A stretch of DNA of 64,000 nt from Gossypium raimondii (Eukaryota > Streptophyta > Magnoliopsida > Malvales > Malvaceae). Location: positions 60,221,924 to 60,285,923 of the forward strand of contig NC_068570.1 of assembly GCF_025698545.1 (NCBI RefSeq), given 5' to 3'. A program made the translations under genes and the position numbers. A model generated the notes under the pieces. The model saw only the letters and a program-made list of their open reading frames with translations, had not been told where the DNA came from and made no database searches. This document shows, in pieces, positions 8,891-34,342 of this stretch; position 1 is the first letter of the stretch, and each line of letters opens with the position of its first letter.

Positions 8891-10385
8891 GCTTTGATTG
8901 ATGCGGCCAAGCATATGATTTGAATCACAAAAACCAAAGATTTTGATTGATGCAAAACGATATATGTTGGATTGTAGCTGAGATTTTTTAAATAGGTTTA
9001 GATATTTTTAAATCTTAGATTTAGTGATAAATTAAGAAAGGGTTTTCCATTTTGATATTTTATGTTAATTTTATCAATCATATCGTTATTTTAAAATTGA
9101 AATTTCCTAAAATATTTAAAAGAAAAAGAAAAGAAAAGAAAAGAATAAATTAATAATAAATACAAATAAATATAAATATTTATTTTATAAATTATAACGA
9201 TAAAATTAAAGTTAAAATATGGCAACGTCCTTGTCTTCTTCAGATATTTGGAATTTAATTCATGTATTTTTATTTTCAAGAATTTAATTTATCTACTTTT
9301 TAAATTTTAAATTTCAATTGCAATTATCAACATTGTTAATTTTTTTATTAAATTTGTTGGTGTGACATTTTGAAATGATAATAAAAATTCACTTTGTGGC
9401 AACGTAATTTAAAAATTACGTAATGAATCTAAATTTAGTAAAATAATTTTAACAAGAATAAAATATAAAATTAAATTCTAAAATTATAGATTTATTAAAT
9501 TGGTAGTAATTTCTTAAAAAAGATGTTAAGATAAGATAGAGGGGAGAATAGTTGGAATTGGTTGGAGGTCCCAAAGGAAAATCTTATTTATTATATAAGA
9601 AGGAAGTTGGTAATGAATTCATTACAAATGCAATATGAGCCATAATAAGTTAGATTTATGTGAATAACATCCCCATCTCTCTACTATTTTATTAAATATA
9701 TGATGCCCACTTCTTTTCTTAAATAAATTCGGATTAAATTATTGTCGGTTGTGAAAGTGAACCTATTGTCCACATAAATTGAAAATTCTCATTCGCTTTT
9801 ATTTCTTTTCGTGAAATAATTTTGATCATTACTGAATCTATAAACCAAAATCTAAACAATTTTCTTATCTTATCTTTAATATTAGCCCCAGTGTTGACTT
9901 GGATTTAAAGTATGTTCTACTTGTCAATAGGTATTGATTCACTGTATCGATTGTCGAATTGTCGCTTGGTACTCTCTAGCTAGACTTTTTTTAAAAAAAA
10001 AATTAACAGCTCAATGACTTAATTAAAATTTTCAAATAATTTAATAATTTAAATAAAAACTTTTGTGATTATTTTGTAACCTTTGAAATTGAAGGACTAA
10101 AGCGTAAACTTAAATCGGGTGTAATTTGCCTAAACATTAATACAACATGTATTATGAGATGGGATAGTAAAACAAAGAGAGTACAAGGCAGGCGGCCGCG
10201 ACCATCCTTTGCATTTGGCATGCATGCATAATTGTCTTCATTTATAATTATAGCCATAGGACATGTAAATCTGTTTCCTCCGCCGATTATGGAAACGATA
10301 CCATCACAATAATACAGACATATATATATATATTAAACCTTGGGTTAGGTACCCATTTCTGTTGCTAATTCAGTCTGTCAGAGGC

Positions 10386-13300
10386 ATGGAACATCAAGAC
10401 TCTAAACTGATTACTTTGTCTTACCAGACCAAGAACATCGACATCCACGAAACCTCTGGTAAACTTCATTTTTCTTCTTCAGTTTCTTTGCATGAAATGG
10501 AACATATGTCTTGTAACAGGTTTAAGCTGTTTTGCAGATGATGAAGTAAATGATTCTCCAATAGAACAAGTCCGACTCACTGTTCCAATTGTCGATGATC
10601 CGACATTACCATGTTTGACATTTAGAACATGGGTTTTAGGGATAACCTCGTGTGCTGTCTTGTCTTTCTTGAACCAGTTCTTCCATTACCGTCAAAATTC
10701 ACTCCACATTTCTTCACTCACAGCACAAATCCTTGTTCTTCCACTTGGAAACCTGATGGCAACATATCTACCTAACAGAACACTTGTGTTGTTTCCTTCA
10801 ACCAAATGGTCCTTCTCATTGAATCCAGGCCCTTTTAACATTAAGGAACATGTTCTTATTACCATATTTGCAAATTCTGGTTCTACCAATGTTTATGCAG
10901 TCAACATTATCACCATAGTTAAAGCATTTTATCATGGTCAGATACACCCTTTCGCTGCTTTGTTGTTAGCTCATACTACCCAGGTCAGTTTTTTTTTCCG
11001 GGTATATTGGAAAGTATCGGTAAAAGTACTACGCAGGATTTTATACTTGTCGTCTACGTTATATATCAAATAGTAAATTAGTTTTTCTGCTAAAAGTTCT
11101 ATCAAGTTTTACTATTAAAAACTTGTGGCACACCACATATAAATGTCTGGTTATTCCGTCAACTACATCAATTTTTAACTATAGAAATAGATAAAATTTT
11201 TAATAAATTAAAATGACTAGTTTTCTTTTTATTTAATCTACAAGGGTTAATTTACTCATTTTTTAAATGAAAGAGACAAATACAATTCGGCTATTAGTAC
11301 AAGGACCTCCACAGTAATTTTACCATAAAATACCTCATATTTATATTATGGATTATGATTGTTTCTTTTTGGAATATTCAGATGCTTGGGTATGGATGGG
11401 CTGGGATTTACAGAAAGTTTCTTGTTGATTCACCGTATATGTGGTGGCCTAATAACCTAGTGCAGGTCTCCCTCTTTAGGTGCCGTCTCTTATTAATTTT
11501 ACCCATTTTCCTATACATATTTTTAGGTTAAATTATGCTATTATTCCTTCTATTTTTATGAAAGTTGTGGCTTTAGTCCTTATATTTTTTAAAATTTAAG
11601 ATTATAGTCCTAACCCAAATAGTAACAATTAAATCTATTTGGTTAAAATCAATTACGGTCATGTACTATGTGCACGGTTGTGGATTTAACTCATATTCTT
11701 TAACTGGACTATTTTAAGTCCCAATATTTTTCAAAATTTGACATAATGCTTGTTAATTCATTAATTGATGTTTTAGTGAATATAATATATGAAATTAACA
11801 AGATGATATGACATTACAAATATGATAATATGTTTTTTTTGTATCCGGACTAGAATTTTAAAATTCAAAAAATACATAAACTAAAAATGACCAAATTAAA
11901 GTACAGAAATTAAATCCATAACTTTCGCAAAGTGAAGTGACTAATAATTTAGCCCATATTTTTATAGTTTCCAACTCATTAAATCGTAGGGTAAACTACA
12001 ATAGTAGTCACTTAACTATGAAAAGTTACAAAATAGTCATCTCCCTATTTAATTTTATCTTTTTTTGTCACCAATTAGCTAACGTGAAAATGGAAATACT
12101 AAAAAACCCAAGATAATTAGGTGACCAAAAAAGACAAAATTAAATAGTTAAACTTTTCATAGTTGGGTGAAAAAAAAAAAGTTTGGTGATTTAGTAACTT
12201 TGGCCAAAAAGAGAAAAAAACATATAGTTGGGTGATAGTTTACCTAAATTGTAATTGTAGGGCGTTGCATGATGATGAGGTTAGGCAAAAAGGTGGCCTA
12301 ACAAGGTTGCAATTCTTCCTCATGGTGTTCATATCGAGTTTGGCGTATTATATCGTTCCAAACTATCTTTTTCCGTCCATTACGGCTTTATCCTTGGTTT
12401 GTTGGATATGGAAGGATTCGGTGACGGCCCAAATCATTGGAGCCGGTCGAGACGGTCTCGGGGTAGGATCGTTTGCACTGGATTGGTCAACTGTGGCTAG
12501 CTTTTTACAATCACCATTAGCCACCCCTGCATTTGCTATAATCAACATAATGTTGGGGTTTGTCATTGTAGTTTATATATTAACCCCTGTAGCTTACTGG
12601 ACTAACTCCTACGAAGCGAGGAGATTTCCGATCATCTCGTCGCATGTGTTCACCGACGACGGCGAGAAATACGATGTTTCGAGAATTTTGAATTTCACGA
12701 CCTACGAATTCAATCAACGAGGATATGATGGCTATAGCAAAATTAACTTGAGTGTGTTCTTTGCATATTCTTATGGTCTTAGCTTTGCTACATTGGTTGC
12801 TACTGTGTCACATGTTGTGTTTTTCCATGGAAGGTAAGGTACTTACCTTTTAGTTTAGGGTAAACTAAACTCAATGGCTGAACTATTAGGAAGTTCATGT
12901 TTTGGTTATTCAACTTTAAAAAGTTATAAAATGGTCACTGAACTAATCAAAAGTCTTTATTTAAGTTAAAGTTGAGTGATCAAAACATAAACATACAATA
13001 GTGACCTTGAGTGTAGTTTACCCTTTAGCTTGACAAGATAGCGGACGCATATTGGGTAACGAATAACGGCTGTTGTTTGATTCGTGTTTGTAGCACGATA
13101 TGGCAACAAACGAAATCGACATTTCGGGATAAGTTTAGTGATGTTCATTATAGAATAATGAAGAAAAGCTATGAAGCAGTACCGCAATGGTGGTTTTATA
13201 TGCTGTCGAGCATCGTAGTCGGACTCGCTGTGCTTATTTCTCAAGGCTTTGGCAAGCAGTTTCAACTCCTTACTGGGGAGTCCTTTTGGCAATTGGCTTG

Positions 13301-14292
13301 GCCTTGTTCTTTACTCTCCCAGTAGGTGTGATTATGGCTACCACAAACCAGGTATATTTTCGATACGCAGCTTGTTCATATGTTACTTTGTTATATTCAC
13401 TTTATATACATGTGCAGCAACTGGGACTAAATATCATCGCCGAGCTGATTATCGGTTACATTTATCCGGGAAAACCGTTGGCAAATGTTGTTTTCAAGAC
13501 ATACGGTTATATAAGCGCGGCGCAGGCGGTTATGTTTCTACAAGACTTCAAACTAGGCCATTATATGAAAGTTCCTCCAAAGTCGATGTTTGTTGTCCAG
13601 GTAAATTTTCTTAATGGATTCGATACTTTTATATCGATATAGTTGTCTGAAAATACCCGGAATGTCAAAGTTGGTAGGAACGGTGGTGGCTACTAGTGTC
13701 TATTTTGGGACAGCTTGGTGGCTCTTAACAACAGTGGAACATATATGTGACCCATCTAAATTGACAAAGGAAGTCCTTGGACATGTCCTGGTGATGACAT
13801 ATTCTATAATGCTTCCATCATTTGGGGTGTAGTTGGACCAGTTCGAATGTTTGGTCGGCTCGGTTTGTATTCTAAGATGAACTACTTCTTTCTTATCGGG
13901 ATTGTTGCACCGTTGCCCGTGTGGATACTGTCCCGTATGTTCCCTGAGAAAAGTGGATTAAGCTCGTTCACATGCCGTTGATTATCGGAGGTGCGGGGGC
14001 ATTGCCAGCAGCCAGGGTTGTGAACTACTGGTGTTGGGGTAGTGTTGGGGTGTTGTTCAATGTTTTTGTGTATAGGAGATATAAAGGTTGGTGGGCTCGT
14101 CATAACTATATATTGTCAGCTGGGTTAGATGCTGGTGTAGCTTTTATGGCTATTCTTTGTTACTTCACATTGCAAATGTGGAATGTTAATGGACCTAAGT
14201 GGTGGGGTGCTCAGTTAGATGATCATTGCCCCCTTGCTAGTTGCCCTACTGCTCCTGGAATACAAGTTGAAGGTTGCCCTGTTTTTCAATGA
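10386..14292 (+). pseudogene. OPT: Oligopeptide transporter (OPT family), copy 1, frame-disrupted
   Basis: The seven-exon structure is the same as in copy 2: 10386-10458, 10538-10983, 11382-11479, 12261-12833, 13094-13351, 13418-13600, 13671-14292. Splice sites are kept. Compared with copy 2, three exonic bases are missing, all in short homopolymers: one C near 13268 (exon 5), one A near 13767 and one A near 13953 (exon 7). Each shifts the frame, so as written the protein stops soon after residue ~455, losing the last transmembrane part. Because most copy differences elsewhere are also homopolymer lengths, sequencing error is as likely as true decay. Upstream DNA beyond 9597 is the ancestral flank, so this copy keeps the original distal promoter. 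Confidence 0.75.
10984..12260. repeat. MITE-derived sequence in OPT copy 1 introns 2 and 3
   Basis: Intron 2 (10984-11381) holds at about 11090-11328 a worn relative of the 3874-4137 MITE: ACTATTAAAAACTTG at one side, ACAAGGACCTCCACAGTAAT at the other. Intron 3 (11480-12260) holds a GGTTAAATTATGCTATTATT element (about 11526-11950), then a GGGTAAACTACAATAGTAGT element (about 11990-12250) that reaches almost to the splice acceptor. The coding exon between the introns is intact. Copy 2 has the same insertions about 11,820 bp further on. Confidence 0.5.
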
Positions 14293-15429
14293 AATTTTCC
14301 TGCTTGCTTTAAACATACTAGAACATATAAACCCTGTCGTATATAAAATTTTGACGGGTTAATATGTAAATTTGTTATCGTATTTTATGAACTAAACATA
14401 AATTTATCACTTTAACTTTATATTGAAATTTGTGGTTTTACTTTGCCACTAAAACTAGATTTTTATTGAATTATGTTATTCAATTTTAATTTAAATTAAT
14501 TTGAAGACAAATTTAATAAAAATATATTTTTATGTTCTACTTTAACATTCACAACAAGCTAATTAATATAATATTAAAAATAAATAAAATGGTTGTTTTA
14601 TAAAAATAAACTTAATTTTTTTCTTTTATGATATATGTATTTTTATTTTTCAAGTTTTTATTTCATTAAATAGAAATTAGATTTTAATTTATTAATTTTC
14701 AATATTTATAAGTTAAGTTATTGGTAACTATTAAAATAAAAAATTGAAAGAATTTTTCTTTTAAATTATGTTTTCAAATCATCAAAATTAATATTGAGTG
14801 ACAAATTTAATAGTAAAAATCAATCACATAAGAGTTTAATGGCAAATGTACTCATATTTTCAAAATATAATGACAAACATCAATAAAAAATATAGTAACA
14901 AATTTCAATTATCACTTATAGTATGATGGTAAATTTGCACTTTAACCCAATTTTGACACATTTGTATACTCATATCGTGCTCATGTAATTTTTTAGTGTT
15001 ATAATCATATCGTATTTAAAATTATCGAACCTAATTTCACGGGAGTAAATTTAACTATTTAACTTTACCTGAGGAGAGGGAAGACGATCCCAAATGTAAA
15101 TTGCAACATCATATATGCTCCTTTTATATCATGCAAACAAATATGATAATCAAGATAGTGCTTTGCCTCCATTTTGTTCAAAGAACAAAAAGATTAAAAA
15201 CTATATATCTATATATATAAATATGCTTTGAGCTTTAATTTATTCATTTGTTTTCAGAACAAGGATAGGCCATGAAACAATCTGGCCAGTTTCCTGATAA
15301 TGCGAGAATATTTCAACATTTTCCGGGTACAGTAAATCGCGGAAATAATTCTTTTGAGTATAAATTTGCAAACAACACTGCCAAACAGGCAAGAATAAGG
15401 AGTAAAATGGTGAAAATGAAACAATCAGA
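14293..15429. other. AT-rich interval between the convergent OPT and PGLP2 genes, copy 1
   Basis: This 1.1-kb stretch separates the 3' ends of two genes that face each other. It holds presumed 3' UTRs and low-complexity AT-rich DNA with runs such as TTAAATTAATTTG. I see no exon or clear element. The copy 2 counterpart is 26115-27247. Confidence 0.5.
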
Positions 15430-18400
15430 TCATTCTCCCAATAAACTGAGAATATCAGATACCTTGTTGGTGTAATAATCTGGTTTGATGCTGTTTGAGG
15501 GGTCATCAAGAGTGGACTGTGTTGTTACTCCTGAAATTTTAGGCATTGCAAACATTAGAAAATATAAGAAAACCTAAGAAGATTCTTAGTTTAATGGTCT
15601 TAAGAACAAGAGATAGCAATAAACCTGATAGAACAAGCAGGGTTTTGCAACCAGCATTTTGTCCAAATAAAATGTCAGTATCTAGTCTATCACCCACCAT
15701 GCACATTCTAGATGTACTTACATTAAATCTGCAAAGCACAACACAGCAGGGAAAAAAAGAGATTATCAGAATAAGTAGAGTAAGGTAAGTGTTCATCAGT
15801 ATTATGCACCAAAGAATCAGTATCAGGTTTGATCATTGTTCAATCAAGCTCAAGCAACTTGAGATATCAAACGAGCCAAATTCAAGTATTCTAATGCTTG
15901 ACTCGAGTAGCGAATTTTTATTTATAATTGTGATAAATCTTTATAAATAATAAAATATATTTAAAATTAAAAATTAGTAATATAATGAACAATGAAGGGT
16001 ATATAGGTCAGTTCAAAAGTTTCTCCAAATTAGTATTAGAAAATCTCAATTTGAACTCAGACACAAGCTCGAGTGTCATAGTTGAGTTTGAAGTGAGCAT
16101 GAAAATTAAATCCATGTTTTTACTATATAAACAAGCTTTTAATCGAGACTAACACCCTAATTGAGAGAGCTAAGAAATTCGATTTTATCCCGAATCTAGT
16201 TAAGCTTTAACAGTGAAACTTCATCAAGTTCAAGCTGGGTTTCGAGCCTAAAATTTCAAGTCAAGCTCTAGCTTCTCAAAACTTGATCTCGGTTCAGCTC
16301 GCTAAGAAGCACTTAACATAGCAGGGTTTTCTACCACGTTTGTTCCCAAACTGTGAAAATGCCATTTTCATTTTAGTGAGGTGCAAGCGACATGAATTTT
16401 AAGAGCCTACCACCACTACCAGTCAGATTCATTCATAATTGAGCAACAGACATTCTCAATCTTCACATGCAGTATATAATACTACCTGATGCTAATCACT
16501 TCAGAAGTAAACTCCAGACATTTAAGTCCATATAAATGCAAATTACACAAATTTTCATTGCTGGTTGGTATATATACAGAACTAGTGCATTAAAATAACT
16601 TACTTCTGCAGTAAAAAGTCCATCATGAAGGTTGAAGGTTTTCCAACTACAATAGGCTCTTGTTCCGTTGACCCACAAACGGCAGCAACCATGCATCCCG
16701 CACCTGCAAATATGAACTAAGAAATGAATGAAGTGGAACTCTCAATCAAACTGAGCAGTAATCTAATTTCTTTACCAGGCCACTCTTGCAGATCAGTCAT
16801 GTGTCCAACTGAATCACGGTTCGTAGCAATAAAAAGACAACCTGGGTTCTCACGGATGCAAAGGGTCGCATACCTGCCAGTTGCAAATATTTTAAAGAAA
16901 GATCAAAGACTCCAAAAAGCGCTGCCATATCTTACAAGTTCAGATCTGATAATAGTTTGTTTAAACTAGGCTTTATACGTTTAATAGAAGGCAATTATTA
17001 GCATTTTCTACTCATCTAGCCAAACATTGTAACCTAAAATTTCCTTGGTGCCCCTAAGTTAACTAGTATTTAACTAAAAATGACCCCTCAGATATATTTT
17101 AGGAGCAAAGAAATCATATTTTAAGTCTAACAATGTGCTGAGATCAATAACGTAGATGCATATACAGTCAAAATACTTTTTAGAGTTAAATATAACACGA
17201 AACTTGGGAACATGTGCTACTGATCAAGGTAGTGAAATATCTAATAAGACTGTTATTAGTGTATGTGATTCAGAACTTTTCCATGTTTTCATGACCAAAA
17301 ACAAAATATAAATTGCTCAGCAACGAAATCTATGGGGAATAGAAACTGGTTCTAAGTTATTTTAGGGGACAAATTTCAGAGACAACCAAAAGTTTAGAAG
17401 ACGTGCTATTTTTTTCCCTCAAAACCAAAGACCAAGCGAGTAGCCATCCACTTACTACGTGGTTCAAACCCTACATTCTCAGTGCACTTGCACAAACATA
17501 CTCGAGAAGCAAGCATAGAAGACGTCCTAATCTCAAATATTCATAACATCATCAAAAAGTGAAGATGGAATTTTTAACTTACTGAAGTTTGTAATAGTTA
17601 ATATCTGGATCTAATCCAACAACAACTGCTCCAACCTGAAGGTAGAAGTTATGAAAATCATGGAAAAGAACCAAGTGACACACTCAGAGAAATTGTAGGC
17701 AAGATGTTACATTACATATTTATCATGCTCAAAGAGACAATTTGATTTCCACTGAGCCCTTTTTTCTGCATCTTCCTGCAACAATATTTCCTCTAAGCAC
17801 TTAAAATTCATTAAAGCAAGAGATTATGATGCAAGAAAAACAAGCACGGTAGAATCAAGGAAAAGATTACAATGAAAAACAACCAAAGACACCCTAGCAA
17901 GGCAACAAGCAAAGGCAAGAATAGCAGTCCAGCACACAAACAGCATGTCAGTTGTTAGAGAGATGGAGAAGAGGATGTATTCCTAATCCAAAGTCATGAA
18001 CTGGAAAACAAAATTGAAAAGACTAAGAAAGTACTGGGCCACCAAGAGCGGTAAATCCAGCAAGTTGCAACTCCTGTACTATGCCTTCCCCGCCAATGAC
18101 ATAAACCTGAAATACAAACAAATTATTAATAGTGTGCAAAAGATAAAATAAATAGAGGTTAAATATTCATTTCCCCCCTAAATATACCACTGATACTTAA
18201 AGAATAAAAAATGGCAATTAGATACTTAAAGTTCATTCATCATGTACTTTGGTCCTTTTGGTTAACATTAGTAATCTAACAATTGATGAGGCATAAACTA
18301 ACACTCGATTATGACACTTAGTAGAAAATGTCATGTAATGATGATACATTGAAAAATATATTTATCTTTATTTCTAAACAAAATTTTTATTTTTGAACTT

Positions 18401-19960
18401 AAAGAAAATTGGAAACACAAAAGATCTGGGTGACAAAATGGGAAGAGAGGAGAGGAGGCTGGGGAAGCGCAGTGCAGAACTCTTGTGTGGTTTGTTGGTA
18501 GAGTGCAGGACTCTTAGCCTCAATGACTAGGAACCTAACCTTGACAATTTCATTTTCAACAATCAAAGATCAAAAAAAAAAGACAGAGCATGAAACAGGG
18601 AAGGGGGATAGTTAGCTGGAGATATACATATACTGATAGTCTGACACTTAACCGTACAGTTTGAAATGAAATTGAACTTTAGGTATTTAACTGTGAATTT
18701 CTATTCTATTAGAAAAGAGTGGTATTGTTCAAGGACAACTGCATATTCTGGCCAACAAATATGCTGGAAGAAAAGTTATGTTGCAAGAAAAGGAAAATAT
18801 ACATGAGGCAAAAATTGCATATTCCATTTGGATAGAAGGTAACAAGAACAGGGTAAGCAGGATTTAGCAGCCAAACATACAGTCAAGAGAGAATAGCAAT
18901 AAGAATTATAGAGAGACTCAAATAGCAACCACAACACTGTGTTAAGAGTCATAAATTTTCAATTTCAACTCTTTCCATAGCCGATATTTAAAGCAATTGA
19001 CTGCAGTAACATGAATATTCCATTTGGATAGAAGGTACCAAGAACAGGGTAAGCAGGATTTAGCAGCCAAGCATACAGTCAAGAGAGAATAGCACTAAGA
19101 AATTATAAAGAGATTCAAATAGCAGCCACAACACTGTGTTAAGAATCACTATTTATCAGTTTCAACTAGTTTCCATAGCCGATATTTATAGTAACTAGCT
19201 GCAGTAACATTCATTAGGTTTGCAACAACAATAAACACAATGCCAGTGAAAACGCATAGCCGCTACTTAAATGCCTTAAAATGTTTAAGGAGTGAAAAAA
19301 GAGAAAACAAGAATAGTAACCTTCTTGTGAGGAGGAAACTGGTTGACCTTCAAGTACATAGCAGCAGCAAAAGAAGACGAAAATATCTCATCCTAAAAAT
19401 ACAGTAGAACAATCAGGAAAAAAAAAAGAGTTGTTTCTTTTCTTTTCTTTGTAAAATTTAATAACATTTGAAGAACCTGATTGACAGAAAGTCCAAGAGA
19501 CTGAAACTTGTTAGCATATTGGATTCTGGACTTGGTAGAGTTGTTGGTCACAAATACCAGTTTCTTCCCCTATTAATCAGATAATAATATTATCGATCAT
19601 TGCACAAGGATGAACCATAGATTCAATAATCAAATGGAAAGCAAAGAAAGAGTGAGAGAGAGACCTTGGATCGAAGCATATCTAACGTCTGTGGGACTCC
19701 ATCGATCAGCTTGTCGCCTTTCCAAATAACACCTGCAATCGCATCGTTACCTTTTATTCACTGCAAAATCCAATGAAAGACAAAATAGGAGTAGAAAAGT
19801 GCGTGGAAATGGAACCATCGCAATCAAATAGAAATGCGTCGACGGAATCCAACAGTGCTCTCGCGTTCGCACAGCATAGAAGCTCGGCGGCGGAAGCAGC
19901 AGCGACGCCGCTCATTGAACTCGGATTCGGATTAGTAGCCTCCATTGATACTTGTTCCAT
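15430..19960 (-). CDS. PGLP2: 2-phosphoglycolate phosphatase (HAD family), copy 1
   Basis: Eleven exons (19960-19816, 19732-19665, 19569-19477, 19392-19321, 18106-18035, 17775-17716, 17635-17583, 16873-16776, 16703-16604, 15728-15625, 15530-15430) join with consistent phases to 966 nt, 321 residues. The HAD motif I is FLFDCDGVIWKG with the nucleophile and acid Asp; motif II is VFVTNNST; motif III lies at VVGKPS; motif IV is MVGDRLDTDILFGQNAG. The middle reads KVYVIGGEGIVQELQLAGF and HMTDLQEWPGAGCMVAA, close to Arabidopsis PGLP2 as I recall it. The enzyme dephosphorylates 2-phosphoglycolate to glycolate, chiefly with a cytosolic role for PGLP2-type proteins. The N terminus has about 30 residues before the core, without a clear transit peptide. 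All exons match copy 2. Confidence 0.93.
18483..18545 (+). repeat. tRNA-Lys-like fragment in PGLP2 intron
   Basis: GTTTGTTGGTAGAGTGCAGG then ACTCTTAGCC resembles the D-arm and anticodon arm (CTT) of a tRNA-Lys. The T-arm box is not preserved (AGGAACCTAACC), so this is not a working tRNA. It is probably a SINE head or tRNA relic. The copy 2 counterpart is about 30307-30369. Confidence 0.35.
18819..19210. repeat. ~196-bp tandem duplication inside a PGLP2 intron
   Basis: Unit 1 (about 18819-19013) and unit 2 (about 19015-19210) both start ATATTCCATTTGGATAGAAG and end near GACTGCAGTAACAT or AGCTGCAGTAACAT. They differ at several scattered bases, so this local duplication is clearly older than the 11.8-kb duplication, which carries it in both copies (copy 2: about 30643-31034). 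Confidence 0.85.
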
Positions 19961-22213
19961 CAACGCATCAACAACTAATGTTACAACCCTTTTGAAATCC
20001 TACCCACCCATAAAGAAAAGAGTAGTTCCTATAAAGATAAAAAAAGTACAGGAATGGTAAAATATTCCTAGAGAAGAAGGTTACGCAACTAAGAACACTA
20101 CTTTTAGCAAATGCTATAGAAGAACACTACTTTTAGCTAATGCTATAGTTTCATCAGCAAAATAGTGAGTGCCTAAAGGTCAGCTATCTACCTCGAAAGA
20201 TCAGTGTTTACAGATTGGTCAATTTATTAATGGAAAGTTATTTTTAAGGGTAAACTACACTTAAAGTCACTAAACTATTAATAAGTTGACGTTTTGGTCA
20301 CTCAGCTTCAAAAAGTTACAAAATGGTCGCTGAATTATTCAAAAATTTTCATTTAAGTCACTGAACTATTCAAAAGTTTTTATTTAAGTTACTAGGCTGT
20401 TAAGTTTTTGGATAAACTATACCATTATAGGTAAGTTTTCGTTTTGATCACTTAATTAAAAAAGTTACAATTTGATCACTAAACTTTTTAAAATTATTTT
20501 TTGGTCACTGGTTGTTAAGTGACACTTTTTAGTTGGTATAATAACAATTTTAGTCATCAACTATTATATTTTCTTGGTAATTTGATTCAGGTTCTATATA
20601 TAAATTATAAAAAAAACTCAAAATTATTTATTTAAAAATTAGTATATAAAAATTCTAAAAATCTCAAAATGTTGTTATTGAGAAACTAATATGTATGAGA
20701 AATAGAGAAAATTATCATTTAATAGAATGTAATAACAAATTAAAAACATAATAACACCAAAAAAGGTAGATCATTACATGCTTCCTCAAGATTTCTAAAC
20801 CAAATTAGTAATATCTTCAAATCGAGTTTCATACCCTTAAAAGTGTCCTAGATTAATACTATAGAAACTTGTGAAATTTACTTTGATACCAATTTTTAAA
20901 ATATAAAATATAAAATAAATAGCCGAATAAGGGTATCAATTAATTCTTATTTTCTAGATTTTTATTATTTGTATTAAATTAAAACTTTCATGGAAATGCT
21001 AGTGTGGCTTTAAAAGGTTTGTAGAGATACTATTGAGGTCGTAAACATGATTAAGGATATTACAATGAAATAAAAATATAGAGATTAAATTTCAAACTTT
21101 CAAAGAGTATAGGGACTTATATGATATATTTTAATCTATTACTTAGTACTGAAAAGGAAACTATGCGGGCAATTTATTTTTGGAATCTAATTCTTCTAGA
21201 ACTTGTTGGTACTATTCTTTTCTTATATTGTTTTGGGTAAAACATGTTTTTTTTTAACAATCTAATTATAGGTTCTGATCATATATGTCTCTTTTTGACA
21301 CAATGTCTAGAATTAACCACGGCCCCTCCCAACCCATAAATAGGAGGATAATACGCTTCAATGCACTCGAACTCACGTCCTCCTCCATTAACAATAATAC
21401 TTATACCAATTGAGAGGTATAAGAAGGAAGTTGGTAATGAATTCATTACAAATGCAATATGAGCCATAATAAGTTAGATTTATGTGAATAACATCCCCAT
21501 CTCTCTACTATTTTATTAAATATATGATGCCCACTTCTTTTCTTAAATAAATTCGGATTAAATTATTGTCGAAGTTGTGAAAGTGAACCTATTGTCCACA
21601 TAAATTGAAAATTCTCATTCGTTTTTATTTCTTTTCGTGAAATAATTTTGATCATTACGAATCTATAAACCAAAATCTAAACAATTTTCTTATCTTATCT
21701 TTAATATTAGCCCCCAGGTTGACTTGGATTTAAAGTATGTTCTACTTGTCAATAGGTATTGATTCACTGTATCGATTGTCGAATTGTCGCTTGGTACTCT
21801 CTAGCTAGACTTTTTTTAAAAAAAAAATTAACAGCTCAATGACTTAATTAAAAATTTTCAAATAATTTAATAATTTAAATAAAAACTTTTGTGATTATTT
21901 TGTAACCTTTGAAATTGAAGGACTAAAGCGTAAACTTAAATCGGGTGTAATTTGCCCTAAACATTAATACAACATGTATTATGAGATGGGATAGTAAAAC
22001 AAAGAGAGTACAAGGCAGGCGGCCGCGACCATCCTTTTGCATTTGGCATGCATGCATAATTGTCTTCATTTATAATTATAGCCATAGGACATGTAAATCT
22101 GTTTCCTCCGCCGATTATGGAAACGATACCATCACAATAATACAGACATATATATATATATTAAACCTTGGGTTAGGTACCCATTTCTGTTGCTAATTCA
22201 GTCTGTCAGAGGC
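19961..22213. other. Intergenic region between PGLP2 copy 1 and OPT copy 2, with the duplication junction
   Basis: This holds the divergent upstream regions of PGLP2 copy 1 and OPT copy 2. About 20250-20560 is a fragment of the common GGGTAAACTACACTTAAAGT inverted-repeat family. A minus-strand SINE lies at 21291-21414, and the junction is between 21420 and 21421. About 21700-21970 is another inverted-repeat remnant ending near CGGGTGTAATTTGCCC. No exon is seen. Confidence 0.6.
21291..21414 (-). mobile_element. tRNA-derived SINE, 5' head incomplete, at the duplication junction
   Basis: On the minus strand it reads CTCAATTGGTATAAGTATTA (A-box-like), GTGAGTTCGAGTGCATTGAA (B-box-like), CCTATTTATGGGTTGGGAGG, and ends ACATTGTGTCAAAAAG. 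It matches the SINE at 54492-54632 along its length. The duplication junction lies 6 bp beyond its head. The copy 2 counterpart is 33114-33237. Confidence 0.7.
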
Positions 22214-25200
22214 ATGGAACATCAAGACTCTAAACTGATTACTTTGTCTTACCAGACCAAGAACATCGACATCCACGAAACCTCTGGTAAACTTCATTTT
22301 TCTTCTTCAGTTTCTTTGCATGAAATGGAACATATGTCTTGTAACAGGTTTAAGCTGTTTTGCAGATGATGAAGTAAATGATTCTCCAATAGAACAAGTC
22401 CGACTCACTGTTCCAATTGTCGATGATCCGACATTACCATGTTTGACATTTAGAACATGGGTTTTAGGGATAACCTCGTGTGCTGTCTTGTCTTTCTTGA
22501 ACCAGTTCTTCCATTACCGTCAAAATTCACTCCACATTTCTTCACTCACAGCACAAATCCTTGTTCTTCCACTTGGAAACCTGATGGCAACATATCTACC
22601 TAACAGAACACTTGTGTTGTTTCCTTCAACCAAATGGTCCTTCTCATTGAATCCAGGCCCTTTTAACATTAAGGAACATGTTCTTATTACCATATTTGCA
22701 AATTCTGGTTCTACCAATGTTTATGCAGTCAACATTATCACCATAGTTAAAGCATTTTATCATGGTCAGATACACCCTTTCGCTGCTTTGTTGTTAGCTC
22801 ATACTACCCAGGTCAGTTTTTTTCCGGGTATATTGGAAAGTATCGGTAAAAGTACTACGCAGGATTTTATACTTGTCGTCTACGTTATATATCAAATAGT
22901 AAATTAGTTTTTCTGCTAAAAGTTCTATCAAGTTTTACTATTAAAAACTTGTGGCACACCACATATAAATGTCTGGTTATTCCGTCAACTACATCAATTT
23001 TTAACTATAGAAATAGATAAAATTTTAATAAATTAAAATGACTAGTTTTCTTTTATTTAATCTACAAGGGTTAATTTACTCATTTTTAAATGAAAGAGAC
23101 AAATACAATTCGCTATTAGTACAAGGACCTCCACAGTAATTTTACCATAAAATACCTCATATTTATATTATGGATTATGATTGTTTCTTTTTGGAATATT
23201 CAGATGCTTGGGTATGGATGGGCTGGGATTTACAGAAAGTTTCTTGTTGATTCACCGTATATGTGGTGGCCTAATAACCTAGTGCAGGTCTCCCTCTTTA
23301 GGTGCCGTCTCTTATTAATTTTACCCATTTTCCTATACATATTTTTAGGTTAAATTATGCTATTATTCCTTCTATTTTTATGAAAGTTGTGGCTTTAGTC
23401 CTTATATTTTTTAAAATTTAAGATTATAGTCCTAACCCAAATAGTAACAATTAAATCTATTTGGTTAAAATCAATTACGGTCATGTACTATGTGCACGGT
23501 TGTGGATTTAACTCATATTCTTTAACTGGACTATTTTAAGTCCCAATATTTTTCAAAATTTGACATAATGCTTGTTAATTCATTAATTGATGTTTTAGTG
23601 AATATAATATATGAAATTAACAAGATGATATGACATTACAAATATGATAATATGTTTTTTTTGTATCCGGACTAGAATTTTAAAATTCAAAAAATACATA
23701 AACTAAAAATGACCAAATTAAAGTACGAAATTAAATCCATAACTTTCATAAAGTGAAGTGACTAATAATTTAGCCCATATTTTATAGTTTCCAACTCATT
23801 AAATCGTAGGGTAAACTACAATAGTAGTCACTTAACTATGAAAAGTTACAAAATAGTCATCTCCCTATTTAATTTTATCTTTTTTTGTCACCAATTAGCT
23901 AACGTGAAAATGGAAATACTAAAAAACCCAAGATAATTAGGTGACCAAAAAAGACAAAATTAAATAGTTAAACTTTTCATAGTTGGGTGAAAAAAAAAAA
24001 GTTTGGTGATTTAGTAACTTTGGCCAAAAAGAAAAAAAAACATATAGTTGGGTGATAGTTTACCTAAATTGTAATTGTAGGGCGTTGCATGATGATGAGG
24101 TTAGGCAAAAAGGTGGCCTAACAAGGTTGCAATTCTTCCTCATGGTGTTCATATCGAGTTTGGCGTATTATATCGTTCCAAACTATCTTTTTCCGTCCAT
24201 TACGGCTTTATCCTTGGTTTGTTGGATATGGAAGGATTCGGTGACGGCCCAAATCATTGGAGCCGGTCGAGACGGTCTCGGGGTAGGATCGTTTGCACTG
24301 GATTGGTCAACTGTGGCTAGCTTTTTACAATCACCATTAGCCACCCCTGCATTTGCTATAATCAACATAATGTTGGGGTTTGTCATTGTAGTTTATATAT
24401 TAACCCCTGTAGCTTACTGGACTAACTCCTACGAAGCGAGGAGATTTCCGATCATCTCGTCGCATGTGTTCACCGACGACGGCGAGAAATACGATGTTTC
24501 GAGAATTTTGAATTTCACGACCTACGAATTCAATCAACGAGGATATGATGGCTATAGCAAAATTAACTTGAGTGTGTTCTTTGCATATTCTTATGGTCTT
24601 AGCTTTGCTACATTGGTTGCTACTGTGTCACATGTTGTGTTTTTCCATGGAAGGTAAGGTACTTACCTTTTAGTTTAGGGTAAACTAAACTCAATGGCTG
24701 AACTATTAGGAAGTTCATGTTTTGGTTATTCAACTTTAAAAGTTATAAAATGGTCACTGAACTAATCAAAAGTCTTTATTTAAGTTAAAGTTGAGTGATC
24801 AAAACATAAACATACAATAGTGACCTTGAGTGTAGTTTACCCTTTAGCTTGACAAGATAGCGGACGCATATTGGGTAACGAATAACGGCTGTTGTTTGAT
24901 TCGTGTTTGTAGCACGATATGGCAACAAACGAAATCGACATTTCGGGATAAGTTTAGTGATGTTCATTATAGAATAATGAAGAAAAGCTATGAAGCAGTA
25001 CCGCAATGGTGGTTTTATATGCTGTCGAGCATCGTAGTCGGACTCGCTGTGCTTATTTCTCAAGGCTTTGGCAAGCAGTTTCAACTCCCTTACTGGGGAG
25101 TCCTTTTGGCAATTGGCTTGGCCTTGTTCTTTACTCTCCCAGTAGGTGTGATTATGGCTACCACAAACCAGGTATATTTTCCATACGCAGCTTGTTCATA

Positions 25201-26114
25201 TGTTACTTTGTTATATTCACTTTATATACATGTGCAGCAACTGGGACTAAATATCATCGCCGAGCTGATTATCGGTTACATTTATCCGGGAAAACCGTTG
25301 GCAAATGTTGTTTTCAAGACATACGGTTATATAAGCGCGGCGCAGGCGGTTATGTTTCTACAAGACTTCAAACTAGGCCATTATATGAAAGTTCCTCCAA
25401 AGTCGATGTTTGTTGTCCAGGTAAATTTTCTTAATGGATTCGATACTTTTATATCGATATAGTTGTCTGAAAATACCCGGAATGTCAAAGTTGGTAGGAA
25501 CGGTGGTGGCTACTAGTGTCTATTTTGGGACAGCTTGGTGGCTCTTAACAACAGTGGAACATATATGTGACCCATCTAAATTGACAAAAGGAAGTCCTTG
25601 GACATGTCCTGGTGATGACATATTCTATAATGCTTCCATCATTTGGGGTGTAGTTGGACCAGTTCGAATGTTTGGTCGGCTCGGTTTGTATTCTAAGATG
25701 AACTACTTCTTTCTTATCGGGATTGTTGCACCGTTGCCCGTGTGGATACTGTCCCGTATGTTCCCTGAGAAAAAGTGGATTAAGCTCGTTCACATGCCGT
25801 TGATTATCGGAGGTGCGGGGGCATTGCCAGCAGCCAGGGTTGTGAACTACTGGTGTTGGGGTAGTGTTGGGGTGTTGTTCAATGTTTTTGTGTATAGGAG
25901 ATATAAAGGTTGGTGGGCTCGTCATAACTATATATTGTCAGCTGGGTTAGATGCTGGTGTAGCTTTTATGGCTATTCTTTGTTACTTCACATTGCAAATG
26001 TGGAATGTTAATGGACCTAAGTGGTGGGGTGCTCAGTTAGATGATCATTGCCCCCTTGCTAGTTGCCCTACTGCTCCTGGAATACAAGTTGAAGGTTGCC
26101 CTGTTTTTCAATGA
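22214..26114 (+). CDS. OPT: Oligopeptide transporter (OPT family), copy 2, intact
   Basis: Seven exons (22214-22286, 22366-22811, 23204-23301, 24081-24653, 24913-25171, 25238-25420, 25491-26114) sum to 2,256 nt, 751 residues, normal for plant OPTs. The family signatures are present: [20 protein letters not shown] in exon 2 and the KIPPR-like [12 protein letters not shown] in exon 6. Many hydrophobic segments fit the 12-16 transmembrane helices of the family. The N terminus is short, acidic and cytosol-like. OPTs are proton-coupled importers of small peptides, and some relatives carry metal chelates or glutathione. The sequence looks closest to the OPT1/OPT5 group, but I cannot fix the substrate. 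Exon 7 uses an unusual AAAG acceptor. Only 793 bp separate its ATG from the duplication junction, so distal promoter parts are absent. Confidence 0.93.
22812..24080. repeat. MITE-derived sequence in OPT copy 2 introns 2 and 3
   Basis: This is the counterpart of 10984-12260, with the same three element remnants at the same places. They were therefore in the gene before the segment duplicated. A further fragment of the GGGTAAACTAAACTCAATGG type fills most of intron 4 (about 24675-24845; copy 1 about 12855-13025). Confidence 0.5.
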
Positions 26115-27247
26115 AATTTTCCTGCTTGCTTTAAACATACTAGAACATATAAACCCTGTCGTATATAAAATTTTGACGGGTTAATATGTAAATTTGTTAT
26201 CGTATTTTATGAACTAAACATAAATTTATCACTTTAACTTTATATTGAAATTTGTGGTTTTACTTTGCCACTAAAACTAGATTTTTATTGAATTATGTTA
26301 TTCAATTTTAATTTAAATTAATTTGAAGACAAATTTAATAAAAATATATTTTTATGTTCTACTTTAACATTCACAACAAGCTAATTAATATAATATTAAA
26401 AATAAATAAAATGGTTGTTTTATAAAAATAAACTTAATTTTTTTTCTTTTATGATATATGTATTTTATTTTTCAAGTTTTTATTTCATTAAATAGAAATT
26501 AGATTTTAATTTATTAATTTTCAATATTTATAAGTTAAGTTATTGGTAACTATTAAAATAAAAAATTGAAAGAATTTTTCTTTTTAAATTATGTTTTCAA
26601 ATCATCAAAATTAATATTGAGTGACAAATTTAATAGTAAAATCAATCACATAAGAGTTTAATGGCAAATGTACTCATATTTTCAAAATATAATGACAAAC
26701 ATCAATAAAAATATAGTAACAAATTTCAATTATCACTTATAGTATGATGGTAAATTTGCACTTTAACCCAATTTTGACACATTTGTATACTCATATCGTG
26801 CTCATGTAATTTTTTAGTGTTATAATCATATCGTATTTAAAATTATCGAACCTAATTTCACGGAGTAAATTTAACTATTTAACTTTACCGAGGAGAGGAA
26901 GACGATCCCAAATGTAAATTGCAACATCATATATGCTCCTTTTATATCATGCAAACAAATATGATAATCAAGATAGTGCTTTGCCTCCATTTTGTTCAAA
27001 GAACAAAAAGATTAAAAACTATATATCTATATATATAAATATGCTTTGAGCTTTAATTTATTCATTTGTTTTCAGAACAAGGATAGGCCATGAAACAATC
27101 TGGCCAGTTTCCTGATAATGCGAGAATATTTCAACATTTTCCGGGTACAGTAAATCGCGGAAATAATTCTTTTGAGTATAAATTTGCAAACAACACTGCC
27201 AAACAGGCAAGAATAAGGAGTAAAATGGTGAAAATGAAACAATCAGA
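26115..27247. other. AT-rich interval between the convergent OPT and PGLP2 genes, copy 2
   Basis: This is the counterpart of 14293-15429. It differs from it mainly by single-base changes in A or T runs. I see nothing coding in it. Confidence 0.5.
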
Positions 27248-30200
27248 TCATTCTCCCAATAAACTGAGAATATCAGATACCTTGTTGGTGTAATAATCTG
27301 GTTTGATGCTGTTTGAGGGGTCATCAAGAGTGGACTGTGTTGTTACTCCTGAAATTTTAGGCATTGCAAACATTAGAAAATATAAGAAAACCTAAGAAGA
27401 TTCTTAGTTTAATGGTCTTAAGAACAAGAGATAGCAATAAACCTGATAGAACAAGCAGGGTTTTGCAACCAGCATTTTGTCCAAATAAAATGTCAGTATC
27501 TAGTCTATCACCCACCATGCACATTCTAGATGTACTTACATTAAATCTGCAAAGCACAACACAGCAGGGAAAAAAAGAGATTATCAGAATAAGTAGAGTA
27601 AGGTAAGTGTTCATCAGTATTATGCACCAAAGAATCAGTATCAGGTTTGATCATTGTTCAATCAAGCTCAAGCAACTTGAGATATCAAACGAGCCAAATT
27701 CAAGTATTCTAATGCTTGACTCGAGTAGCGAATTTTTATTTATAATTGTGATAAATCTTTATAAATAATAAAAATATATTTAAAATTAAAAAATTAGTAA
27801 TATAATGAACAATGAAGGGTATATAGGTCAGTTCAAAAGTTTCTCCAAATTAGTATTAGAAAATCTCAATTTGAACTCAGACACAAGCTCGAGTGTCATA
27901 GTTGAGTTTGAAGTGAGCATGAAAATTAAATCCATGTTTTTACTATATAAACAAGCTTTTAATCGAGACTAACACCCTAATTGAGAGAGCTAAGAAATTC
28001 GATTTTTATCCCGAATCTAGTTAAGCTTTAACAGTGAAACTTCATCAAGTTCAAGCTGGGTTTCGAGCCTAAAATTTCAAGTCAAGCTCTAGCTTCTCAA
28101 AACTTGATCTCGGTTCAGCTCGCTAAGAAGCACTTAACATAGCAGGGTTTTCTACCACGTTTGTTCCCAAACTGTGAAAATGCCATTTTCATTTTAGTGA
28201 GGTGCAAGCGACATGAATTTTAAGAGCCTACCACCACTACCAGTCAGATTCATTCATAATTGAGCAACAGACATTCTCAATCTTCACATGCAGTATATAA
28301 TACTACCTGATGCTAATCACTTCAGAAGTAAACTCCAGACATTTAAGTCCATATAAATGCAAATTACACAAATTTTCATTGCTGGTTGGTATATATACAG
28401 AACTAGTGCATTAAAATAACTTACTTCTGCAGTAAAAAGTCCATCATGAAGGTTGAAGGTTTTCCAACTACAATAGGCTCTTGTTCCGTTGACCCACAAA
28501 CGGCAGCAACCATGCATCCCGCACCTGCAAATATGAACTAAGAAATGAATGAAGTGGAACTCTCAATCAAACTGAGCAGTAATCTAATTTCTTTACCAGG
28601 CCACTCTTGCAGATCAGTCATGTGTCCAACTGAATCACGGTTCGTAGCAATAAAAAGACAACCTGGGTTCTCACGGATGCAAAGGGTCGCATACCTGCCA
28701 GTTGCAAATATTTTAAAGAAAGATCAAAGACTCCAAAAAGCGCTGCCATATCTTACAAGTTCAGATCTGATAATAGTTTGTTTAAACTAGGCTTTATACG
28801 TTTAATAGAAGGCAATTATTAGCATTTTCTACTCATCTAGCCAAACATTGTAACCTAAAATTTCCTTGGTGCCCCTAAGTTAACTAGTATTTAACTAAAA
28901 ATGACCCCTCAGATATATTTTAGGAGCAAAGAAATCATATTTTAAGTCTAACAATGTGCTGAGATCAATAACGTAGATGCATATACAGTCAAAATACTTT
29001 TTAGAGTTAAATATAACACGAAACTTGGGAACATGTGCTACTGATCAAGGTAGTGAAATATCTAATAAGACTGTTATTAGTGTATGTGATTCAGAACTTT
29101 TCCATGTTTTCATGACCAAAAACAAAATATAAATTGCTCAGCAACGAAATCTATGGGGAATAGAAACTGGTTCTAAGTTATTTTAGGGGACAAATTTCAG
29201 AGACAACCAAAAGTTTAGAAGACGTGCTATTTTTTTCCCTCAAAACCAAAGACCAAGCGAGTAGCCATCCACTTACTACGTGGTTCAAACCCTACATTCT
29301 CAGTGCACTTGCACAAACATACTCGAGAAGCAAGCATAGAAGACGTCCTAATCTCAAATATTCATAACATCATCAAAAAGTGAAGATGGAATTTTTAACT
29401 TACTGAAGTTTGTAATAGTTAATATCTGGATCTAATCCAACAACAACTGCTCCAACCTGAAGGTAGAAGTTATGAAAATCATGGAAAAAGAACCAAGTGA
29501 CACACTCAGAGAAATTGTAGGCAAGATGTTACATTACATATTTATCATGCTCAAAGAGACAATTTGATTTCCACTGAGCCCTTTTTTCTGCATCTTCCTG
29601 CAACAATATTTCCTCTAAGCACTTAAAATTCATTAAAGCAAGAGATTATGATGCAAGAAAAACAAGCACGGTAGAATCAAGGAAAAGATTACAATGAAAA
29701 ACAACCAAAGACACCCTAGCAAGGCAACAAGCAAAGGCAAGAATAGCAGTCCAGCACACAAACAGCATGTCAGTTGTTAGAGAGATGGAGAAGAGGATGT
29801 ATTCCTAATCCAAAGTCATGAACTGGAAAACAAAATTGAAAAGACTAAGAAAGTACTGGGCCACCAAGAGCGGTAAATCCAGCAAGTTGCAACTCCTGTA
29901 CTATGCCTTCCCCGCCAATGACATAAACCTGAAATACAAACAAATTATTAATAGTGTGCAAAAGATAAAATAAATAGAGGTTAAATATTCATTTCCCCCC
30001 TAAATATACCACTGATACTTAAAGAATAAAAAATGGCAATTAGATACTTAAAGTTCATTCATCATGTACTTTGGTCCTTTTGGTTAACATTAGTAATCTA
30101 ACAATTGATGAGGCATAAACTAACACTCGATTATGACACTTAGTAGAAAATGTCATGTAATGATGATACATTGAAAAAATATATTTATCTTTATTTCTAA

Positions 30201-31784
30201 ACAAAATTTTTTATTTTTGAACTTAAAGAAAATTGGAAACACAAAAGATCTGGGTGACAAAATGGGAAGAGAGGGAGGGAGGCTGGGGAAGCGCAGTGCA
30301 GAACTCTTGTGTGGTTTGTTGGTAGAGTGCAGGACTCTTAGCCTCAATGACTAGGAACCTAACCTTGACAATTTCATTTTCAACAATCAAAGATCAAAAA
30401 AAAAAGACAGAGCATGAAACAGGGAAGGGGGATAGTTAGCTGGAGATATACATATACTGATAGTCTGACACTTAACCGTACAGTTTGAAATGAAATTGAA
30501 CTTTAGGTATTTAACTGTGAATTTCTATTCTATTAGAAAAGAGTGGTATTGTTCAAGGACAACTGCATATTCTGGCCAACAAATATGCTGGAAGAAAAGT
30601 TATGTTGCAAGAAAAGGAAAATATACATGAGGCAAAAATTGCATATTCCATTTGGATAGAAGGTAACAAGAACAGGGTAAGCAGGATTTAGCAGCCAAAC
30701 ATACAGTCAAGAGAGAATAGCAATAAGAATTATAGAGAGACTCAAATAGCAACCACAACACTGTGTTAAGAGTCATAAATTTTCAATTTCAACTCTTTCC
30801 ATAGCCGATATTTAAAGCAATTGACTGCAGTAACATGAATATTCCATTTGGATAGAAGGTACCAAGAACAGGGTAAGCAGGATTTAGCAGCCAAGCATAC
30901 AGTCAAGAGAGAATAGCACTAAGAAATTATAAAGAGATTCAAATAGCAGCCACAACACTGTGTTAAGAATCACTATTTATCAGTTTCAACTAGTTTCCAT
31001 AGCCGATATTTATAGTAACTAGCTGCAGTAACATTCATTAGGTTTGCAACAACAATAAACACAATGCCAGTGAAAACGCATAGCCGCTACTTAAATGCCT
31101 TAAAATGTTTAAGGAGTGAAAAAAGAGAAAACAAGAATAGTAACCTTCTTGTGAGGAGGAAACTGGTTGACCTTCAAGTACATAGCAGCAGCAAAAGAAG
31201 ACGAAAATATCTCATCCTAAAAATACAGTAGAACAATCAGGAAAAAAAAAAGAGTTGTTTCTTTTCTTTTCTTTGTAAAATTTAATAACATTTGAAGAAC
31301 CTGATTGACAGAAAGTCCAAGAGACTGAAACTTGTTAGCATATTGGATTCTGGACTTGGTAGAGTTGTTGGTCACAAATACCAGTTTCTTCCCCTATTAA
31401 TCAGATAATAATATTATCGATCATTGCACAAGGATGAACCATAGATTCAATAATCAAATGGAAAGCAAAGAAAGAGTGAGAGAGAGACCTTGGATCGAAG
31501 CATATCTAACGTCTGTGGGACTCCATCGATCAGCTTGTCGCCTTTCCAAATAACACCTGCAATCGCATCGTTACCTTTTATTCACTGCAAAATCCAATGA
31601 AAGACAAAATAGGAGTAGAAAAGTGCGTGGAAATGGAACCATCGCAATCAAATAGAAATGCGTCGACGGAATCCAACAGTGCTCTCGCGTTCGCACAGCA
31701 TAGAAGCTCGGCGGCGGAAGCAGCAGCGACGCCGCTCATTGAACTCGGATTCGGATTAGTAGCCTCCATTGATACTTGTTCCAT
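27248..31784 (-). CDS. PGLP2: 2-phosphoglycolate phosphatase (HAD family), copy 2
   Basis: This is a second, intact copy of the gene at 15430-19960, with the same eleven exons shifted by 11,818 bp at the 3' end and 11,824 bp at the 5' end. The ATG is at 31784 and the stop at 27248-27250. The HAD motifs (FLFDCDG, VTNNST, GKPS, VGDRLDTD) are unchanged, and I saw no exonic difference from copy 1. It encodes the same 321-residue protein. Its upstream region beyond 33243 is the ancestral flank, so this copy keeps the original distal promoter, while copy 1 now faces OPT copy 2. A redundant photorespiration-linked phosphatase could change dosage if both are expressed. Confidence 0.93.
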
Positions 31785-34342
31785 CAACGCATCAACAACT
31801 AATGTTACAACCCTTTTGAAATCCTACCCACCCATAAAGAAAAAGAGTAGTTCCTATAAAGATAAAAAAAAAGTACAGGAATGGTAAAATATTCCTAGAG
31901 AAGAAGGTTACGCAACTAAGAACACTACTTTTAGCAAATGCTATAGAAGAACACTACTTTTAGCTAATGCTATAGTTTCATCAGCAAAATAGTGAGTGCC
32001 TAAAGGTCAGCTATCTACCTCGAAAGATCAGTGTTTACAGATTGGTCAATTTATTAATGGAAAGTTATTTTTAAGGGTAAACTACACTTAAAGTCACTAA
32101 ACTATTAATAAGTTGACGTTTTAATCACTCAGCTTCAAAAAGTTACAAAATGGTCGCTGAATTATTCAAAAATTTTCATTTAAGTCACTGAACTATTCAA
32201 AAGTTTTTATTTAAGTTACTAGGCTGTTAAGTTTTGGATAAACTATACCATTATAGGTAAGTTTTCGTTTTGATCACTTAATTAAAAAGTTACAATTTGA
32301 TCACTAAACTTTTAAAATTATTTTTGGTCACTGGTTGTTAAGTGACACTTTTAGTTGGTATAATAACAATTTTAGTCATCAACTATTATATTTTCTTGGT
32401 AATTTGATTCGGTTCTATATATAAATTATAAAAAAAACTCAAAATTATTTATTTAAAATTAGTATATAAAAATTCTAAAAATCTCGAAAATGTTGTTATT
32501 GAGAAACTAATATGTATGAGAAATAGAGAAAATTATCATTTAATAGAATGTAATAACAAATTAAAAACATAATAACACCAAAAAAAGGTAGATCATTACA
32601 TGCTTCCTCAAGATTTCTAAACCAAATTAGTAATATCTTCAAATCGAGTTTCATACCCTTAAAAGTGTCCTAGATTAATACTATAGAAACTTGTGAAATT
32701 TACTTTGATACCAATTTTTTAAAATATAAAATATAAAATAAATAGCGAATAAGGGTATCAATTAATTCTTATTTTCTAGATTTTTATTATTTGTATTAAA
32801 TTAAAACTTTCATGGAAATGCTAGTGTGGCTTTAAAAGGTTTGTAGAGATACTATTGAGGTCGTAAACATGATTAAGGATATTACAATGAAATAAAAAAT
32901 ATAGAGATTAAATTTCAAACTTTCAAAGAGTATAGGGACTTATATGATATATTTTAATCTATTACTTAGTACTGAAAAGGAAACTATGCGGGCAATTTAT
33001 TTTTGGAATCTAATTCTTCGAGAACTTGTTGGTACTATTCTTTTCTTATATTGTTTTGGGTAAAACATGTTTTTTTTTAACAATCTAATTATAGGTTCTG
33101 ATCATATATGTCTCTTTTTGACACAATGTCTAGAATTAACCACGGCCCCTCCCAACCAATAAATAGGAGGATAATACGCTTCAATGCACTCGAACTCACG
33201 TCCTCCTCCATTAACAATAATACTTATACCAATTGAGAGGTATTGCATAATCCATGTACCATTAGCATACATGAATCTCATAAATACTCAAGTACAAAAT
33301 CATCTACTACATGCAAACAATGCATTAGACCTGCCCATGCGCTGAGTCAATCCCTAACAAAATTATAGGTTCGTTTGATAGGCTCAAGCCTGACCCGAAA
33401 AACGAGCCTAAATTTTTACTAAAGTCTGACTTGGATTATATATGCTAAACTTGGGTCCAGTCCGGCCCATATTAATTTTTTATTATATTATATATATATA
33501 AAAATATTAAAAAATATAATATATAGAAACACTAAAAATTTTAAAACTGATATTTTTATCAAAATTGATATTTTTATCTAAAAATTAAATCAATGTTGGA
33601 ATTTGAAGGAAGAAATACTTAAGAGGAGTAATTTATGTAGTAAAAAAGTCAAACCTTAAACGCGAAAAGGGCAAAGCAATAGCAAATTGCAATTTGTAAC
33701 AGGTTCAAAAGTCTCCCTCCTTTCTTAATTCTTTGTTAAACAAAATAAAATTAATTAATTAATGAAGTAAAAGTGTCCTCCTTTTTTGGATTTGCTTTCG
33801 TAGATGATCTCATCTTTTTCCTGTTTTTGACATATTTTATTTGAATCTTTGTAGAATATATAAATTCCCCAGATTTAATCCATTTTGTAGATTCTTTATC
33901 AATATAATTTATTCTGTTTGCGTGCGTCCATTATTTATTTATCGTTTTTGAATCTGTGTTTTGTCTTCTTCTCCTTCTTCATCAACCAATGTAGCTTTCT
34001 GGATTTGTTATTTCTTATATGATTAATTAAGGGGATGCTACTGGGCATTGCCTTGATTCTTCATAAATAATTAAATAAAAAATTGAACAGTTTTGAGTTA
34101 GATTTGAATATTAATGCTTTGGGGATTTATCTCTCTGTTTCTTTCCTTCTCCCAGACATGGAAGAAGGGGAATTGACAATGATTAGAAGGAAATAATAAA
34201 ATGGCGGCATTGTTCATTCTTGGGTATTCTTGCTTGTATCAATGACGGAAACAGTGTTGATCAGAATTGGATTGGGGGAGTAATAGCAAATTTGGATCAT
34301 CTTTCGATTGATCCCTGAAATAAAACCTATAATAAAAGAAAA
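31785..34342. other. Intergenic region and leader of the C2/GRAM gene
   Basis: About 32075-32370 is a fragment of the common AAAGTTACAAAATGGTC inverted-repeat family. About 33358-33600 looks like a decayed hAT-type element (CAAGCCTGACCCG, TCCGGCCCATATTAA) with an AT-rich tail. About 33690-34342 is likely promoter and 5' leader of the next gene: it is CT-rich and free of stop-limited coding. No TATA box stands out. Confidence 0.4.
33114..33237 (-). mobile_element. tRNA-derived SINE at the right edge of the duplication
   Basis: This is the counterpart of 21291-21414, with one or two base differences (for example AACCAATAAATAGG against AACCCATAAATAGG). The duplicated segment ends 6 bp after its A-box side, and DNA beyond 33243 is single-copy. 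Confidence 0.7.

Follow-up and report, generated by a model that had tools for sequence, protein, structure and literature searches.

Does a nearly perfect tandem repeat in the written genome of Gossypium raimondii record a very recent duplication in the plant, or was a single locus placed in the assembly twice? The question is raised by an 11.8-kb unit that carries an OPT-family gene and a PGLP2-like gene and is written in two direct copies. The window, by which we mean the whole 64,000-nucleotide stretch that was analysed, is C6:60,221,924-60,285,923; C6 is 60.4 Mb long, and the genome searched comprises 750.8 Mb in 281 contigs. Coordinates given below without a contig name are positions in the window. 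The reading that we favour, with a probability of roughly 0.48, is a direct tandem duplication of an ordinary kind and very recent date, whose copies would in truth be identical or nearly so, with the indels between them being mostly residual consensus error. This is a lean, in which a real and undiverged duplication is ranked very slightly above a false duplication of one locus, and the odds are a matter of judgement.

Whether real or false, the duplication is an ordinary kind of thing. A real event would add another to the recent copy-number changes that carry genes; if the duplication is false, the assembly contains a spurious OPT gene and a spurious PGLP2 gene, and gene-family counts are misled. 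In either case, the written differences between the copies are unfit for dating the event or for naming the OPT gene of copy 1 a pseudogene.

The duplicated unit, its junction and its genes

The written structure of the locus can be read directly from self-BLASTN of the window and from pairwise alignments. Copy 1 occupies 9594..21420 and copy 2 occupies 21418..33243, both on the plus strand, so written that the copies lie in direct orientation and adjoin each other directly, with an overlap of 3 bp at the junction. Their alignment runs to 11,852 columns at 99.49% identity (E = 0), and 9 mismatches and 48 gap openings were counted in it. The direct tandem arrangement described in the initial annotation is borne out, and the ends found here lie within 3 bp of those that it gave.

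The overlap consists of the bases TAT (21418..21420, strand not applicable), which the alignments directly reveal as common to the left breakpoint, the junction and the right breakpoint. There is no N in the whole window, and so none between the copies. A DNA query taken across the junction (21171-21670) matched at full length solely at its own place among the candidates scored. Because only 6.9% of random position pairs drawn from the window share at least 3 bases (P = 0.069), the 3-bp microhomology gives mild support to an origin by end joining. The unit also resembles segmental duplications formed by microhomology end joining in having abutting direct copies, arbitrary ends, a short junction match and genes carried along, and in being without a long repeat at both of its ends; it differs in that its true divergence is masked by probable consensus errors.

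Unequal crossing-over between long flanking repeats was rejected as a mechanism, since the match terminates at both breakpoints and no long repeat is common to the ends.

The first of the two genes belongs to the OPT family (PF03169) and was located on the plus strand by profile search, running from the first to the last matched piece over 10612..14289 in copy 1 and 22440..26111 in copy 2. The exons of copy 2 are open: five pieces span positions 1-621 of the 623-position profile, and four frames score from 97.6 to 132.1 bits against a PF03169 cut-off of 25.8. The OPT gene of copy 1 differs in that its frame is broken as written. Compared with copy 2, one base is missing at each of ~13270, ~13769 and ~13953, and this leaves the last exons in several frames. 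The only further difference within the matched OPT pieces is one substitution, which lies at 13362 inside a putative intron. In both copies, the OPT piece at profile positions 149-327 overruns its exon to a TAA.

The second gene is a PGLP2-like HAD phosphatase on the minus strand, at 15439..19891 in copy 1 and 27257..31715 in copy 2, with exon pieces along nearly the whole query. In both copies, the tblastn pieces lie between residues 2 and 298 of the Arabidopsis query; PF13344 and PF13242 are matched as well, and the pieces of copy 2 are above the Pfam cut-off. On the near full-length similarity to this Arabidopsis PGLP2 sequence and on the two domains, both gene copies are predicted to encode a putative PGLP2, a phosphoglycolate phosphatase of the HAD superfamily. 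The PGLP2-like exon pieces contain not one of the 57 differences listed below. The earlier description of a whole OPT gene and a whole PGLP2 gene in each copy holds insofar as pieces of both genes are present in both copies, but is not borne out for the OPT gene of copy 1, whose frame is broken as written.

Between PGLP2 exon pieces lies a 199-bp direct repeat, 89% alike, at 18816-19210 and again at 30640-31034. Since none of the 57 copy differences lies in it, this repeat is older than the written duplication.

The spectrum of differences between the copies

A second alignment resolved the differences into 57 events, 9 substitutions and 48 indels, over 11,801 aligned bp. The indels are short, 45 of them being 1 bp and three 2 bp in size, with none above 2 bp. 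Homopolymers of at least 4 contain 33 of the 48 and runs of at least 5 contain 31, so that 17 fall outside runs of at least 5. The initial annotation had noted a very low divergence made up mostly of homopolymer-length changes, and these counts agree with it. Four of the nine substitutions sit in two adjacent pairs. Six of the nine are transitions, with G/C in copy 1 and A/T in copy 2, and these could be true mutations in copy 2 instead of error.

When A/T runs are classed by the longer version, the fraction that differs between the copies is 2/177 at length 4, 17/69 at length 5, 9/18 at length 6, 1/5 at length 7 and 3/10 at length 8 or more. A jump at run length 5 is typical of noisy long-read consensus, and nanopore reads are a likely source of the noise. 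The rise with run length stops beyond 6, where the numbers are small (4/15 for all runs of at least 7), and this speaks against pure noise. A/T runs of at least 6 occur at ~2.5 per kb in the copies and ~4.3 per kb in the flanks; composition may explain their scarcity in the copies, because a pericentromeric sample has ~2.7 per kb.

A comparison was made with all eleven listed repeat pairs, at 85 to 97% identity, from the 200 kb of C6:25.0-25.2 Mb, a stretch with 33.3% G+C. Over 7,923 aligned bp, these control pairs differ by 636 substitutions along with 49 indels, of which 27 are of one base and nine are both short and located in homopolymers of at least 4. The contrast between the unit (9 substitutions, 48 indels) and the controls (636, 49) is extreme (Fisher p ~6e-39, with events treated as independent), for control pairs that are much older than the unit and whose polishing is not matched to that of the unit. 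Since the control pairs are so much older, short reads can tell their copies apart. Homopolymers of at least 5 differ in 31 of 107 cases in the unit; the controls have 3 of 26, a contrast that taken alone falls short of significance (p = 0.08) but is seen at a substitution difference about a hundredfold lower in the unit. A query from a second repeat family matched six places. Besides the query itself, these were two at 89%, one at 97% and 342 bp long that the control set already included, and two short ones. One of the pair at 89% could be aligned with the query over 1,355 bp, where 107 substitutions and not a single indel separate them.

The error-like spectrum is thus a direct observation, and the majority of the differences that separate the copies as written are very probably errors, whether the duplication is real or false. 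Dating from the 99.5% identity was rejected on this account: the 0.5% "divergence" probably consists mostly of noise, which gives no age and which also argues against two haplotypes. Of the earlier proposal that the duplication is very young, the low and indel-dominated difference stands, but that difference has the look of consensus error and not of age. What the alignment does provide is an upper limit on the true substitution divergence, 9 in 11.8 kb or 0.08%.

A possible real duplication and its rivals

In a real event, the two ends of one 11.8-kb gene-bearing segment would have been joined through ~3 bp of microhomology, giving two copies whose true sequences would be identical or nearly identical and both of which, we infer, exist in the plant. 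Most of the 48 indels, and perhaps also the nine substitutions, would then be residual long-read consensus errors. Short-read polishing would have been unable to remove them, because the reads at each error site would map better to whichever copy is right there. A real event is slightly favoured by the gap-free junction, by its 3-bp microhomology and by a sequence quality that shows no clear drop there. Counting against it are the end-decay counts for ends wider than 2 kb (see below), the lack of a rise past A/T runs of 6, the 17 of 48 indels outside runs of at least 5, and the one-sided direction of the six G/C-to-A/T substitutions.

A serious contender, to which we give somewhat less than an even chance, is that two successive contigs both contain one and the same locus, the first at its end and the second at its start. 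Their 11.8-kb overlap would have escaped merging, scaffolding or gap closure would have linked the ends without inserting N, and the differences would be the consensus errors of two contig ends. For such homotype false duplications, Rhie et al. 2021 (PMC8081667) and Ko et al. 2022 (PMC9516828) give as marks contig boundaries or gaps, a read-like length, differing consensus quality and low depth, and describe duplicated sequence as attracting reads during polishing; the former puts their length at the order of a long read. The unit shares with the duplications described there its near-identical neighbouring copies, its read-like length and its error-type differences, and differs from them in a junction that has neither a gap nor a clear decay of quality. 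The absence of N is a weak argument, however, because false copies can also be fused without N when a gap is filled, as Ko et al. 2022 (PMC9516828) relate.

The few substitutions and error-type indels, the poor consensus and the length of 11.8 kb, close to that of a long read, all suit an unmerged overlap, although a poorly polished real copy would give an equally error-like spectrum. The short side of the indels is clustered, with 17 runs of same-copy-short indels (shuffle p = 0.014), and this fits patchy polishing, although a real copy could show the same. On the other side, the shorter version belongs to copy 1 at 23 indels and to copy 2 at 25, and such a balance counts for a real duplication and against two contig ends; a 3-bp microhomology would also be somewhat unusual for a blunt join. 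A decay in quality was sought by assigning each error to the shorter copy and comparing the predicted contig-end corners with the opposite corners. Errors at predicted and opposite corners number 6 and 12 within 1 kb and 13 and 13 within 2 kb, and the counts then tip the other way, to 16 and 14 within 3 kb and 20 and 15 within 4 kb. There is no clear loss of quality toward the would-be contig ends.

A more specific version of the real and undiverged duplication, in which it is private to some accessions, doubles the dose of OPT and of the photorespiratory phosphatase, and was kept for that dose, is improbable in our judgement.

The initial annotation had offered uncollapsed haplotypes as an example of an artefact, that is, the two haplotypes of a heterozygous plant set in tandem, and this heterotype false duplication now appears highly improbable. 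The nine substitutions could be heterozygous sites. Alleles are expected to show an excess of substitutions, however, and what is observed is 48 indels, none above 2 bp, against nine substitutions, four of which are in the adjacent pairs; furthermore, the control repeats on C6 are rich in substitutions. With haplotypes disfavoured, the readings that remain are a homotype false duplication or a real copy with a true divergence of about zero.

Least probable of all is that the duplication is real but older and that three true frameshifts have turned the OPT gene of copy 1 into a pseudogene. The three one-base deletions do fall in the OPT pieces of copy 1, and none in those of copy 2. All three, however, lie in homopolymers (3 to 5 in length), as do many of the other indels, and the OPT and PGLP2 exon pieces are free of substitutions save for 13362 in the putative OPT intron. 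Coding sequence does not usually decay by frameshifts without coding substitutions.

Flanks, dispersed repeats and related sequences

Outside the unit, the domain scan found a protein kinase (PF00069) in two long open frames on the left (1874..3692, minus strand) and exons of C2, VASt and GRAM domains, with frames open, on the right (34319..38441, plus strand); NPH3, mTERF, FHA and PMEI domains in the flanks also lie in long open frames. These frames suggest that the flanks are better polished than the unit, but this is loose evidence, since the domain scan took open frames by choice.

A third copy of the unit at high identity was not found among the best candidates scored with DNA queries 9597-10600 and 21171-21670, which cover the start of the unit and the junction, or in OPT and Hydrolase_6 family searches. 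The remaining matches in these searches are dispersed repeats or other family members. We found no literature on tandem copies of OPT or PGLP2 in Gossypium raimondii or in Gossypium. Among the matches listed for WRKY and NAM (of 160 and 179), inspection by eye found no adjacent same-strand pair of equal score, the nearest to such a pair being on C5 at 28.65 and 28.68 Mb, with 92.8 and 93.0 bits.

Two dispersed repeats lie within the unit. One of ~168 bp, at 21247-21414 and 33070-33237, ends ~4-6 bp inside the right breakpoint of the unit, and among the scored candidates it has counterparts on many chromosomes, for the most part at 80-86% similarity. By its putative box motifs, it looks like a tRNA-derived SINE in minus-strand orientation; no common word of at least 6 that would mark a target-site duplication was found around the element at the right end of the unit. 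The other, of ~310 bp (9797-10112), starts ~200 bp inside the left breakpoint; its counterparts among the scored candidates also lie on many chromosomes, for the most part at 71-77% similarity. At 219-377 in the window, a 79-bp unit stands in two tandem copies with 97% matches.

On another contig, C5:17900817-17917905 contains three sets of OPT exon matches within ~17 kb, with unequal scores, and represents a tandem array in the OPT family whose members have diverged further.
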